DNA of 44,495 bases from a virus: positions 1-44,495 of the IMG/VR virus record IMGVR_UViG_3300032516_000056, one strand, 5' to 3'. The notes under the pieces are model-generated. The model saw nothing but the letters and a program-made list of their open reading frames with translations. It was not told the DNA's origin and did not search any database. Of the stretch, positions 2,684 through 17,330 are shown piece after piece. Numbering within the stretch: the first letter of the stretch is position 1; each line of letters starts with the position of its first letter. A program made the position numbers and the translations under genes.

Positions 2684-3316
2684 TTAGTCGCCTCCTTTGG
2701 AATTAAGCGTCGCCATGGCTTCGGCGCGTTCCTGGCACGCGCGGCACTCACCGCACGGGGTACTGCTGGAGCCGTAGCAGCTCCAGAGCTTATTGAAATC
2801 AAAGAAGGCTTGCGCGGCCGCGCGAACCACTCTGGCCTTGCTCCACCCGCGCACGGGCCGAAGGATGAGCGGCGCAGCTACGCCCGGGCCAAGCGAGAGA
2901 TCGATGACTGCATCCATCGCGTTGAAGAACGCATCGCTTGAGTCGCCGAACGAGTACGGATCACAGGGCTTCACGGTCTCAGTCTTGTTGCCGACGATCA
3001 CCGCGACCGCCTTCTCGTCCACCGCGCGGGCGACCGTCAGGCTGAGCAGCACGGCGTTGCGCATCGGTACCCACTGCGGGAAGAACTCAAAGCCGGGCAG
3101 ACGAGGGATCTCGATGATGCGCAGCGGCATCGCGAGAGCGCGCGCCACATACTCGGCCGCCCGCCGCTCAGGCTCCGCGTAGGGTTGCCCGTAGTCGATG
3201 AAGACGCCGCACGGCGAGTACCCGATCCGCCGGGCTTCCAACGCAGCGACCGCGCTGTCGAGGCCGCCGCTGATCTGCGCCACCGCCCTCATGATCATCG
3301 GGTGCCGCCCTATCAT
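2684..3316 (-). CDS. queC: 7-cyano-7-deazaguanine (preQ0) synthase
   Basis: 210 aa. It is an ATP-dependent enzyme converting 7-carboxy-7-deazaguanine plus ammonia to preQ0. The PP-loop SGGLDS is at 16-21, and the C-terminal zinc cysteines are C180, C188, C191 and C194 (PCGECRAC). I chose the ATG at 3314-3316 because it overlaps the aminotransferase stop (ATGA, 3313-3316); the frame runs further upstream without a good start. There is no fused amidotransferase domain, so this is plain QueC rather than the Gat-QueC type linked with archaeosine-like bases. It supplies the base that the DpdA-like enzyme would insert. Confidence 0.95.
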   Translation of the reverse strand: MIGRHPMIMRAVAQISGGLDSAVAALEARRIGYSPCGVFIDYGQPYAEPERRAAEYVARALAMPLRIIEIPRLPGFEFFPQWVPMRNAVLLSLTVARAVDEKAVAVIVGNKTETVKPCDPYSFGDSSDAFFNAMDAVIDLSLGPGVAAPLILRPVRGWSKARVVRAAAQAFFDFNKLWSCYGSSSTPCGECRACQERAEAMATLNSKGGD

Positions 3317-4218
3317 CGCTTGCCTCCCTTCGCCCGCTTGAGGGCCTTGCGCAATCGCTCGTGCTGCGCGTCCGTCCCTGACCACAAGAACACCTGACGA
3401 TAGCCGAGCTCTGTGCGCCACAGATCGAACTCATCGAGGATGGCCCGCTGGCTGATCCGCACCGCGGCCGGGTCGATGGTGACGACGGGCCCGGTGCCGA
3501 TCACGGATGACGGCGGAAGCGCGTCGCGCAGTTTCTCACGGCGGCGGCGGATCTCGATGATGTGCGCGAGTGGATCAAACCGCGCCAGCCGCTCGTTGAG
3601 GTCAACAAGCAGGGAGATGGGCGGCGTTGTCGGAAGCTGTGGGAAGAAACGCCGGTGAGTGAACAGGTCTAGCCCGTCCCAGACCAAGCGCCCGGTGTAG
3701 GGCTCTGTGACGAACGGTCCCCAGTCGCTGACGAAGGCAAGCGACAGCCCGGGCAGCGCGCCGAGCTGCTTGCCCGCGGTCGTGACGGCGCAGAGGGTGC
3801 GGTCGGGAATCGCGTAGTACGGGAACCCGGAGACCATGTCGAGCAGCGTTGCCCCGGAGGTCATCACGCTGCTCACGCTCGTCTCATACTGCACGTCAGC
3901 GAACGGGATCTCGAAATCATCCCGCCCCGCGAGCTTCTTCTCCAGCACAACGGACGCGCGCAGGCGGTTGCCGAAGGTTCCGCGCGACGGCATCACCCGG
4001 ATCGGTTCACGGTGGCTGCGGACCATGGCTTGCACCGCGAGCGTCCCGCCGACAGGAAGGATCAAGACCGTGAAGCTCCACGGCACATGGAGCCGAGAAT
4101 GAACGCGCTCGACGATCTCCTCCATCAATTTCTCGAACGGGCGGCCGCGGTGGCTGGTCAGACCGCGATAGTTCGCGGAGTGGCACTCGCAGACGCGACG
4201 ATCATTTGGTCCGAACAT
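3313..4218 (-). CDS. Class V PLP-dependent aminotransferase-like protein in the 7-deazaguanine operon
   Basis: 301 aa. The order of motifs follows the class V aminotransferase fold: TSHRGRPFEKL near 21-31, a glycine-rich strand LILPVGGT at 52-59, RGTFGNR at 79-85, YETS at 111-114 (family H-N-E-T-S), LLDMVSGFPYYAIPD at 125-139 with PLP-binding Asp127, and TTAGKQLGALPG with Lys150 as the likely Schiff-base lysine, followed by TTPPISLL. It is somewhat shorter than the usual 350-400 aa. The start has AAGGAGG upstream and lies 17 bases inside dpdA; the stop overlaps queC. It sits inside the preQ0-DpdA operon, so a role in tailoring the modified base is inferred. A standard amino-acid aminotransferase is the alternative. 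Confidence 0.8.
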   Translation of the reverse strand: MFGPNDRRVCECHSANYRGLTSHRGRPFEKLMEEIVERVHSRLHVPWSFTVLILPVGGTLAVQAMVRSHREPIRVMPSRGTFGNRLRASVVLEKKLAGRDDFEIPFADVQYETSVSSVMTSGATLLDMVSGFPYYAIPDRTLCAVTTAGKQLGALPGLSLAFVSDWGPFVTEPYTGRLVWDGLDLFTHRRFFPQLPTTPPISLLVDLNERLARFDPLAHIIEIRRRREKLRDALPPSSVIGTGPVVTIDPAAVRISQRAILDEFDLWRTELGYRQVFLWSGTDAQHERLRKALKRAKGGKR

Positions 4219-4945
4219 TCAGCGCCTCCTTCGTGAGCATCGACTCGCACAGCGCGAGTTGCTTGCGCCATCGGAACCGCGCCCACGCGGCGCGCTTCTG
4301 ATGAGCGATGGCTTCGATCCAGTAATCCTTGTTGCGCCTCGAACGGATCGCCATCTGCGTCCCGGTGTAGCCGGCCCAGTTGCCGAACCCGCCCGGGGAC
4401 TTCACCCACGACGAAGCATCCACGGAGTGCCACGGCACAAGCCGGATATCGGCCCACGAGGCGTAGGCGAACCCGTGAATGGGCTTGGGCCAGACGCGCC
4501 GGAAGCACTCCATGATCCACTGGTGACGATTCTTGAGCTTGCCCGAGATCGCGATCTTCGGATGGCTGCGGGCGCACCACTCAAGCTGCGCCCACGGCTC
4601 GCCCTGATGAAAGGTCGGGATGGCCGGGACACCGGCGCTCCACATGGCATCGAGGTTGCGCTTGGTGCCCTCCACGTCCCGGATCACGTCCAAGCCGAAG
4701 ACCTCCGCGGCGTCCACGTCCTTGCAGATCGCGATGTAGTCGGCCAGCTCGATCTTCAGGCCGCTATAGAACGCGGAGAAGGCGCCGGAGTCCAGCACCC
4801 AGCGCGCGACGTTGTACTCGTGGCGGTTCTTCGTCCAATCCTTCAGCGACGGCAGAGAAACGAGGATATCCACCGCCTCCTCGCCGGCGTGGCGGCGCAG
4901 CGTCTCGTGACTGTTGAAGCCATAAGCCAGGTAGACGGCGGTCAT
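4202..4945 (-). CDS. dpdA: DpdA-like DNA-guanine transglycosylase
   Basis: 247 aa, related to tRNA-guanine transglycosylases. VLDSGAFSAF at 50-59 corresponds to the TGT active-site TDSGGFQ, with Asp52 as the general acid/base candidate. GLDVIRD at 84-90, PTFHQGEPW at 110-118 (TGT VQGG region), AISG at 132-135 and HGFAYAS follow, and SVDASSW at 174-180 carries Asp176, the likely nucleophile. The typical C-terminal TGT zinc site is not obvious, as in other short phage members. DpdA enzymes exchange guanine in DNA for preQ0 or a derivative. The ATG overlaps the ParB-like stop (ATGA, 4942-4945). Neighbouring queC, queD, queE and folE support DNA modification rather than tRNA modification. Confidence 0.85.
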   Translation of the reverse strand: MTAVYLAYGFNSHETLRRHAGEEAVDILVSLPSLKDWTKNRHEYNVARWVLDSGAFSAFYSGLKIELADYIAICKDVDAAEVFGLDVIRDVEGTKRNLDAMWSAGVPAIPTFHQGEPWAQLEWCARSHPKIAISGKLKNRHQWIMECFRRVWPKPIHGFAYASWADIRLVPWHSVDASSWVKSPGGFGNWAGYTGTQMAIRSRRNKDYWIEAIAHQKRAAWARFRWRKQLALCESMLTKEALNVRTK

Positions 4946-5568
4946 TTCGTCTTGCTCCCCTTGTACGCCGTGCAGAGCCGAACAAGCACGGCGCCGTCCG
5001 TGATGGTCTCCGCGAGCCCAGCGCGAATCGCCGCGGCGGTCGCGTCGAAGGTCGCACGCTCCTCCAGCGTCAGGCGAATCGGCACGCCCTCATGCGCGGG
5101 CTCGTTCTCGTGAGCCGGGCGCGGCGACCAGTCAGCGTTCAGAAGGGGCGTCCACTCAGCCTCCGACCATCCGAGGGCGGCCAGGTCAACGCCGGAATCC
5201 ATTAGCGCCTGCATCTGTTTTGACAGTCCCTCGAAGTCCCACGACGACAGCTCCGGCGCTCGGTTGTCAGCGATCGCCCACGCAGTGGCCTCAGCGTCGC
5301 TCAGGGCGCTTCGGCTTACCCAGATCTCCTTCCACCCGAGAGCCGCCGCCGCCTGATACGTCAGGTTGCCCGCGATGATGACGTTCTTCTTGCTCACCAC
5401 TATCGGCTTTTGCTGTCCGAACCGGGCGAGGATAGCCGTCAGGGTTTCGAGGGCGCGCGCGGGATGAGCGCGCACGTTCGCCGGGTCCTGATGCAGCTTC
5501 GACATTCTCAGGCAGAGCCGTGGCTCTTGCGCCGCGGCCGACGAGGGAGAAGATCTTTTGGATGGCAT
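4942..5568 (-). CDS. ParB/Sulfiredoxin-fold nuclease-like protein
   Basis: 208 aa. The ParB N-terminal-like fold is clear: SKLHQDPANVRAHP, QQKPIVVSKKN, IIAGNLTYQAA and LGWKEIWV, followed by AIADNRAPELSSWD and a D-x2-LGWSE segment. In phages this combination usually occurs next to DNA methylases or modification genes, acting as a CTP-binding or nuclease-like DNA-binding protein. The start at 5566-5568 has GGAGG about ten bases upstream. It overlaps the dpdA start by four bases, so the two proteins are probably made together. The first half lies in a different frame inside the 3' part of the upstream gene (278 shared bases), which is unusual. It could direct or restrict modification; that is inference. 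Confidence 0.8.
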   Translation of the reverse strand: MPSKRSSPSSAAAQEPRLCLRMSKLHQDPANVRAHPARALETLTAILARFGQQKPIVVSKKNVIIAGNLTYQAAAALGWKEIWVSRSALSDAEATAWAIADNRAPELSSWDFEGLSKQMQALMDSGVDLAALGWSEAEWTPLLNADWSPRPAHENEPAHEGVPIRLTLEERATFDATAAAIRAGLAETITDGAVLVRLCTAYKGSKTK

Positions 5569-5860
5569 CGTGCATTTCCTCCGGCGTAAGAGCGGGGCCC
5601 TCGTCCTGGGGCACCGCTGCGGTTGCGGCACGGCTCATTGTTATCCGCCGGACCGACTCGAGCAGTTCAGAGACGAACGGGTATGGCGTGCGGCGATCGG
5701 GGTTCATGGTCGCCACGAAGCTGCGCGCCGCTTCAAGGGTCTCGGCGTAAGGCAGGCGGCGGAGCTGATCCCAGTACGTGTCCCGGGTCTGCTGGAAGCT
5801 GCGCCGATGGCATGCGCCGTCGAGATAATCCATGAGGCGTCCGAAGTCGTCGTGAGTCAT
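5291..5860 (-). CDS. Helicase-loader-like replication protein with a long overlapping tail
   Basis: 189 aa as read. Residues 1-75 resemble small phage helicase-loader/inhibitor proteins: DDFGRLMDYL, a WDQLRRLPYAETLEAA helix pair and RTPYPFVSELLESV. These bind replicative helicase and load it at the origin. The start overlaps the initiator stop (ATGA, 5857-5860). From about residue 96 the frame runs antiparallel in sense to nothing conserved: it is a second reading of the ParB-like gene, rich in Arg, Gly, Glu and Pro. Family members are near 100-130 aa, so the tail may be a stop-codon loss, a genuine overlap, or a base error. Function from context (next to the initiator) is moderately supported. 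Confidence 0.6.
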   Translation of the reverse strand: MTHDDFGRLMDYLDGACHRRSFQQTRDTYWDQLRRLPYAETLEAARSFVATMNPDRRTPYPFVSELLESVRRITMSRAATAAVPQDEGPALTPEEMHDAIQKIFSLVGRGARATALPENVEAASGPGERARSSRARPRNPDGYPRPVRTAKADSGEQEERHHRGQPDVSGGGGSRVEGDLGKPKRPERR

Positions 5861-16250: not shown

Positions 16251-17330
16251 TCAGGTGGGCGGCGCTGCCATCGGGAGTGCCGGTTGCGCTCCCCAGTGAG
16301 CGATCCGAGCCTCCGCGATCTTGACGTATTCCGCCTCGCGCTCGATGCCGATGAACTTGAAGCCCTCCATCTCTGCCGCGCATCCGGTCGTCCCGCTCCC
16401 CGCGAACGGGTCCAGCACGGTCCCGCCCGGTGGTGTCACGAGTCGGCAGAGCCACCGCATGAGCGAGAGCGGCTTGACGGTGGGATGGTGGTTCGCGGCG
16501 GGGACGGAACGCCCCTTGCCGTCAGATAAATCATCCTCTTGCCCGCCCCGCACTCCCATAGTAGAACGGATCGCAGCCTCCCGCAGCCCAGCCTCCCGCT
16601 CGCTCCGGCTCGCCTTCGCGCAGTAGTAGAAGCGCGACGGGCCGCCGGAGTCGCCGAAACCCACGACGAGGCCGGGAGTCCTTTCCTCTCCCCTCATGAT
16701 ATCCGTGATCCCTCCGGAGTGATCTCCGCGCGTCCCGAAACCGCCACCTACCGCGCCTGCCTCCTCATCCAGCATCCCCGCCGCTTCCTCGTCCAGGCAG
16801 ACGTTCGCGGGCCAGCGGCCGGAAGGTGGATTCGCTGCATACGCAATCTGGCGGTCACGACTCGATCCGAGCAGGGACATTCCCGATCCCCTGCCGTCAT
16901 TGGGAGATACGCATGGAGTCACTGTCCCTGGTACGCTTGGTGCTGTGTCTAACCTACACGCCTCCACCTGCAACTCCCCCGGCCCCTTCTTGCGCGCCAT
17001 GATCACCGGCTCCCACGCGGGCTTGAGGCAGCGCCTCCCCTTCGGGAAGCCGGAGCCGTAGAGCCAGCACAGCGTATCGCGCATCTCCCATCCGGCATCC
17101 TCGACGGCGCACGCGAGCCGATGCCATGTCCGCGTCCCGCCGAAGGCCAGCAGGTAGGAGCCGGGCCGGGCCACGCGGAGGGCTGCGGCCCAGAACGGCG
17201 CACCGGGGACGCCATGATCCCACGTCTTGCCCATGAACTTGAGTCCGTAGGGCGGATCGGTGACGACTGAATCGACGGACTCGGCATCGAGCCGAGCCAT
17301 CACATCGAGGCAGTCGCCGGAGAGGATCAC
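16251..17330 (-). CDS. DNA adenine-type methyltransferase, beta class
   Basis: 359 aa. The catalytic DPPYGL (motif IV) is at 25-30 and the SAM-binding DPFAGSGTTG (motif I) is near 310, the order of the beta class. DPPY favours N6-adenine (or N4-cytosine). An inserted central region of about 120 residues with WPANVCLDEEA is seen in related phage enzymes and may be the target-recognition part. The start overlaps the holin stop (ATGA, 17327-17330). It has no restriction partner nearby, so it probably protects phage DNA or alters regulation, as a second layer above the 7-deazaguanine modification. It is inside the lysis cluster, an unusual place. Confidence 0.92.
   Translation of the reverse strand: MILSGDCLDVMARLDAESVDSVVTDPPYGLKFMGKTWDHGVPGAPFWAAALRVARPGSYLLAFGGTRTWHRLACAVEDAGWEMRDTLCWLYGSGFPKGRRCLKPAWEPVIMARKKGPGELQVEACRLDTAPSVPGTVTPCVSPNDGRGSGMSLLGSSRDRQIAYAANPPSGRWPANVCLDEEAAGMLDEEAGAVGGGFGTRGDHSGGITDIMRGEERTPGLVVGFGDSGGPSRFYYCAKASRSEREAGLREAAIRSTMGVRGGQEDDLSDGKGRSVPAANHHPTVKPLSLMRWLCRLVTPPGGTVLDPFAGSGTTGCAAEMEGFKFIGIEREAEYVKIAEARIAHWGAQPALPMAAPPT

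Follow-up and report, generated by a model that had tools for sequence, protein, structure and literature searches.

A tight minus-strand operon in a 44.5-kb virus record (the window, analysed here over its whole length) appears to build a DNA base by joining an amine to 7-carboxy-7-deazaguanine (CDG), and it probably by-passes preQ0. Terminase and portal genes identify the record as that of a tailed phage. The operon runs parB-dpdA-AT-queC-queD-queE-folE, where AT encodes a class V PLP-dependent aminotransferase-like enzyme and the queC product, here termed QueC*, is an altered QueC. We assign a probability of roughly 55% to the following route: FolE, QueD and QueE would convert GTP to CDG; AT would form a small amine by transamination of some aldehyde or ketone; QueC*, acting like Cap9, would adenylate the CDG carboxylate and ligate that amine to it instead of ammonia; and DpdA would exchange the product, an N-substituted 7-carboxamido-7-deazaguanine, for guanine in DNA, where the modified base presumably blocks host restriction enzymes. 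These chemical steps are deduced from sequence and structural models, which show the gene content and order, the folds, the recurrent AT-QueC pairing and the altered QueC motif. Phage 7-deazaguanine bases described so far derive from preQ0 or its close neighbours. The base of this phage is probably new, as the initial annotation had suggested it may be.

The operon carries dpdA together with folE, queD and queE, the gene set that marks 7-deazaguanine DNA modification. All of its genes lie on the minus strand. The first encodes a ParB-like protein (4942 to 5631); several related phages also have a parB gene ahead of dpdA, and homologues were found directly upstream of dpdA in loci L010, L101 and L012 and in mycobacteriophages. 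DpdA (4202 to 4945; 247 amino acids; phrog_887, E = 1.3e-26) belongs to the DNA 7-deazaguanine transglycosylase family, a phage queuine-transglycosylase-like family, retains the conserved motifs DSGAF and D-[SA]-S, and gave tblastn matches in 220 phage records. QueD (2273 to 2683; PF01242, E = 3.4e-30) is of the 6-carboxytetrahydropterin synthase family, and QueE (1624 to 2283) is a CDG synthase of the Cx14CxxC type (TIGR04508, E = 2.8e-44, under the model's cut-off). FolE (725 to 1702), a GTP cyclohydrolase I (PF01227, E = 3.9e-62), has an N-terminal phosphoribosyltransferase-like domain (PF00156, E = 5.7e-4); its start is likely the ATG at 1627, which gives a 4-nt overlap with queE. The same fusion is present in L015, and in L106 a separate phosphoribosyltransferase gene adjoins folE. 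In L095 (6424 to 7995), folE is seemingly split by an intein-like insert, as is the ThyX gene of L103 (10783 to 12438). Elsewhere in the window, positions 16251 to 17330 encode a DNA methyltransferase (phrog_67, E = 2e-67), and the phage may thus have a second DNA modification.

AT is encoded by an intact ORF with an ATG start (3313 to 4218; 301 amino acids). It overlaps dpdA by 17 nt (4202 to 4218) and queC by 4 nt (ATGA, with the queC ATG at 3316); overlaps with both genes had been noted initially. The interval first given, 3313 to 4945, covers dpdA as well as AT. The residues on which the class V assignment had been based, Lys150, Asp127 and YETS (Y111-E-T-S114), were found at those positions. 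As a single sequence, AT matched no Pfam or PHROG family, and its class V matches were weak. When a profile of the AT family was run against the PDB, it matched class V transaminases with E values of 1e-21 to 1e-18 (3f0h, 9.8e-22; PntC-AEPT, 9.8e-19), and an AlphaFold (AF2) model (pLDDT, 88.7; pTM, 0.88) matched class V transaminases in Foldseek, with the aminoethylphosphonate:pyruvate transaminase 7e7g at the top (E = 5e-14). Given these profile matches and the agreeing predicted fold, AT is not a chance ORF. In an alignment of 21 family members, D127 (codon at 3838 to 3840), the predicted partner of the PLP pyridine nitrogen, S130, and K150 (3769 to 3771), the predicted Schiff-base lysine, are invariant, and E112, T113 and S116 are nearly so. 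The lysine, the Asp and the modelled fold support classification of AT as a class V (fold type I) PLP enzyme.

The nearest matches of AT, by profile and by structure, are aminoethylphosphonate and serine/phosphoserine transaminases. AT shares its fold and PLP site with PhnW and PntC-AEPT (7e7g and 6pd1), but it is shorter, and the Arg near the C terminus (RI[GSC] motif) with which amino-acid and PhnW-type transaminases bind the substrate carboxylate is absent. At this site the window AT has Gln275 (codon at 3394 to 3396) and the family has Gln (Lys or His in two members), where PhnW-type controls have Arg; the substrate is thus not an obvious amino acid, and ordinary amino-acid transamination by AT is, on this residue, uncertain. 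The initial annotation had held that closest homologs among ordinary amino-acid transaminases would speak against its proposal; AT and its relatives instead form a group of their own. Since AEP transaminases are the nearest structures, an ordinary phosphonate (AEP) pathway was weighed and set aside. The operon has no recognised phosphonate gene, and the test for phosphonate metabolism, which covered PEP mutase in six genomes with cellular AT relatives, gave one sub-cut-off match. Class V also contains the cysteine desulfurases, and the structural neighbours of QueC* include the PP-loop thiolases TtuA, MnmA and LarE, so that AT might donate sulfur in the manner of a cysteine desulfurase to a QueC* that acts as a PP-loop thiolase, with a thioamide or thiocarboxylate as the base. 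No Cys column is conserved in the 21-member alignment, which ruled out a cysteine desulfurase identity for AT, and QueC* retains the four zinc-site Cys residues typical of QueC, not the LarE/TtuA pattern; together with the transaminase character of the nearest AT matches, this makes a sulfur-containing base highly improbable.

Single-sequence searches with AT found no relatives in phages, plasmids, IMG/VR (exact peptide patterns) or 50 DpdA-bearing records. Relatives surfaced only when a DNA motif of the PLP site (Asp127...Lys150) was used as the query; its scan of IMG/VR gave one AT relative, 31% identical (E = 1.2e-20 in the contig search), and the initial view of AT as confined to this contig was given up. 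Aligning the two sequences led to 13 other IMG/VR loci, and the next alignment yielded two more. By these pattern-based scans, which miss distant relatives, 15 independent viral AT loci were counted, nine of them 7-deazaguanine operons and six without que genes. The nine are the window, L101/L102, L095/L097, L096, L105 (the contig of L091), L106, L099/L100, L121 and L125. AT directly adjoins queC in all nine, in several gene orders, with that of L101/L102 identical to the window's. The transglycosylase of L106 is divergent and TGT-like and was not matched by the DpdA profile, and the available part of L121, a contig fragment, lacks dpdA. Between AT and queD in the dpdA operon of L099 (8876 to 9867) lie HAD-like and cytidine/guanine-deaminase-like genes.

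L121 and L125 came from a search with QueC* alone, and AT was directly upstream in both; found through the neighbouring QueC rather than through AT, they are independent support for the pairing, yet such a search enriches for que loci. Membership of AT in an operon with dpdA, queC, queD, queE and folE is supported, as is its linkage to the deazaguanine pathway, and the pairing recurs in other phages. Among dpdA phages at large AT is rare: none of 80 loci picked by DpdA alone carries it. No isolate phage with the AT-QueC* pair was found among 50,697 records. Cellular AT relatives are also rare: scanning 84,980 species gave seven loci, and these are surface-polymer loci that include TagF-like proteins and nucleotidyltransferases. 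This company would fit a metabolic passenger, an enzyme of phosphonate or surface-polymer metabolism that is in the operon by chance. Such an origin is very unlikely given the direct adjacency to queC in nine independent loci of differing gene order, the overlapping operon genes and the covariation of a QueC motif with AT.

QueC* (2684 to 3316; PF06508, E = 2.8e-27) is the operon's only QueC. A 2026 survey with mutagenesis defined the signature of preQ0-making QueC as YxQxHxxE, VPxRN and YPDC (PMC13329287). The window protein has YGQPYAEPE, VPMRN and FGDSSDAFF; VPxRN is thus present, whereas the His of YxQxHxxE and YPDC are absent, and the label of a preQ0 operon that had been applied initially is not supported. 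In place of the canonical YPDC region is the motif DPYSFGDS (2939 to 2962). A set of 85 distinct QueC-family proteins was compared, 9 beside AT and 76 from loci without AT. The motif DP[YFW][SC]xxD[SC] was present in 8/9 AT-linked QueCs and in 0/76 others; conversely, [YF][PS]D[CN] was found in 68 of the 76 others and the His of YxQxHxxE in 56, and neither occurred in any of the nine. QueC* retains SGGxDS, RN, the base-binding aromatic and Asp, and four Zn cysteines. Judged by its residues, then, the window QueC keeps in kind the positions predicted to hold the base, has lost the preQ0 features and has the spacing of Cap9.

In the QueC tree, whose long branches limit detail, the eight motif-bearing AT-linked QueCs and the QueC of L123 form one clade (support, 100/99); L123 lacks the motif, retains DCR and has no AT at its locus. 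The ninth AT-linked QueC (L099) is separate and divergent, so that this tree has at least two origins of the AT-QueC link. Because eight of the nine form one clade, few independent events underlie the motif association. Among named phages, those whose QueCs are nearest (Saguaro, Rinkes and Knocker) lack AT, and their QueCs carry the canonical YPDC. Mycobacterium phage Knocker is an isolated phage whose gp4 (L156, 2544 to 3188), like a similar gene of L011 (3786 to 4448), lies next to queC and codes for a Cys-rich protein (CGGCC) that may have a tailoring function.

Ligases of the Cap9 type have as hallmarks a protein substrate with an MGG-type N terminus and a Cap10 partner. Cap9 of type IV CBASS deazaguanylation (PMC13279940, PMC11996544) conjugates CDG to the amine of an N-terminal glycine and carries the motifs Y/FxQ(x)5E, RN and YxDCxxxF (PMC13329287, PMC13279940), in which the Tyr stacks on the base and the Asp reads its Watson-Crick edge (PMC13279940). 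QueC* resembles it in the QueC fold, YxQ(x)5E, RN and aromatic-x-D-[CS]-xxx-F: YGQPYAEPE and RN match, and FGDSSDAFF fits by spacing but has F where Cap9 has Y and S where it has C, a likeness of motif only. When an AF2 model of QueC* was searched in Foldseek, the Cap9-NDG complex (9nto) was the top structural match (E = 4.9e-11) and Bacillus subtilis QueC was second (1.7e-9), a modest lead since the TM-scores on the query were equal; the sequence profile placed canonical QueC slightly above Cap9. Whereas the target of Cap9 is a protein N terminus, QueC* is encoded alongside dpdA and AT in an operon for a DNA base. From the motif changes, the Cap9 spacing and the Foldseek rank, we infer QueC* to be a CDG-amine ligase whose amine is supplied by AT.

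Among known phage systems, the DpdA/preQ0 DNA modification systems of phages such as CAjan and Rosebush (Hutinet 2019, PMC6884629) have the same dpdA, folE, queD, queE and QueC-family gene in one operon; the window operon adds AT, and its QueC lacks the preQ0-synthase motifs. The archaeosine-type modification of phage 9g likewise uses an altered QueC, Gat-QueC, to reach a base other than preQ0, but QueC* has a PLP partner instead of an amidotransferase domain, and DPYSFxDS where Gat-QueC has YPDN. In Gat-QueC, a phage QueC is indeed fused to a domain that supplies nitrogen (PMC6884629), and the tight coupling of AT and queC in translation could similarly mean that AT passes ammonia or an aminated carrier to QueC*, with plain ADG or preQ0 as the product. 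Release of ammonia is not normal for transaminases, and a nitrogen supplier would leave unexplained both the changed substrate motif of QueC and the presence of AT beside ATP-grasp ligases; we consider this role quite unlikely.

The ATP-grasp association was found in the AT loci without que genes. In L094, L098, L103/L104, L116 and L117, AT adjoins a RimK-like ATP-grasp protein, and PIG-L and glycosyltransferase-like genes are also present; the remaining one, L107, has a nucleotidyltransferase. The L094, L098, L103, L116 and L117 clusters also encode a HAD-like protein and are candidates for glycan or DNA hypermodification. Seven records whose AT relative lies apart from que genes were checked for dpdA elsewhere, and none had it. 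The que and ATP-grasp contexts interleave in the AT tree, and the clade of the window AT (98/97) comprises five que and three ATP-grasp members. Such switching of AT between ATP-dependent ligases, including RimK-like partners without detectable dpdA, argues for AT as the maker of an amine that a ligase then uses, and against a role in reshaping deazaguanine.

This bears on the initial proposal that a transaminase turns a 7-formyl-7-deazaguanine into an aminomethyl base. In that case QueC* would still make preQ0 or 7-amido-7-deazaguanine, as its retained catalytic, base-binding and zinc residues would allow, and AT would later convert a deazaguanine aldehyde, whether free or already within DNA, to an aminomethyl-type base; some other hypermodified phage bases are indeed acted on by PLP enzymes. 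The operon has no recognised enzyme for making a 7-formyl base, the canonical preQ0 signature is lost from QueC*, and same-clade AT relatives are found in phage records where neither dpdA nor que genes were detected. An aminomethyl base is accordingly unlikely, and a CDG amide is more likely than a transaminated 7-formyl base. A second initial suggestion, that AT attaches an amino acid-like group, comes near the best explanation, except that the predicted attaching enzyme is QueC* and not AT. As had been stated, no aminotransferase among the known 7-deazaguanine tailoring enzymes is described in the literature searched.

Synthesis of a CDG amide has a parallel in CmoX/CmoY, by which a carboxyl on phage cytosine is ligated to glycine to give 5cxmC-glycine (PMC12783734). 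The shared principle is a carboxyl handle on the base, an amine and an ATP-dependent amide ligase; the base, the ligase family (AsnB-like) and the site of ligation (on DNA) differ from those of the window system. Counted for the CDG amide route were the AT-queC adjacency (9/9), the motif distribution, AT at L121 and L125, the Cap9 spacing and Foldseek rank, the ATP-grasp relatives and this parallel. Counted against it were the single clade of eight QueCs, the modest Foldseek preference, a profile that favours QueC, the lost substrate Arg, L123 without AT and the lack of an isolate phage. There is about an even chance that the operon represents a new class, N-substituted 7-carboxamido-7-deazaguanines formed from CDG with no preQ0, in which QueC has turned amide ligase and the amine comes from a PLP enzyme that also serves ATP-grasp ligases elsewhere. 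If so, the AT-QueC* pair would be a general means of hanging amines on the CDG carboxyl, parallel to carboxymethylcytosine in phage DNA and to Cap9 in bacterial immunity, with one reaction serving attack and defence. DP[YFW][SC]xxD[SC] adjoining AT would then provide a sequence signature for finding such phages, plus a short list of candidate enzymes.

Other departures from the ordinary queC arrangement were observed among the dpdA operons. In L015, an asparagine-synthase-like gene with a glutaminase domain (3679 to 4935) lies between queC and queD, and the QueC has FPDAT in place of YPDC; by analogy with CmoY for carboxymethylcytosine, the asparagine-synthase-like protein is possibly another amide ligase. 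The operon of L010 (8463 to 9287) has two DpdAs and a SAM methyltransferase, with no QueC recognised between DpdA and QueD, and its product may be CDG or methylated CDG. In L017 (7662 to 9007), a 199-amino-acid protein and a very divergent ATP-pyrophosphatase adjoin dpdA and replace the ordinary queC.
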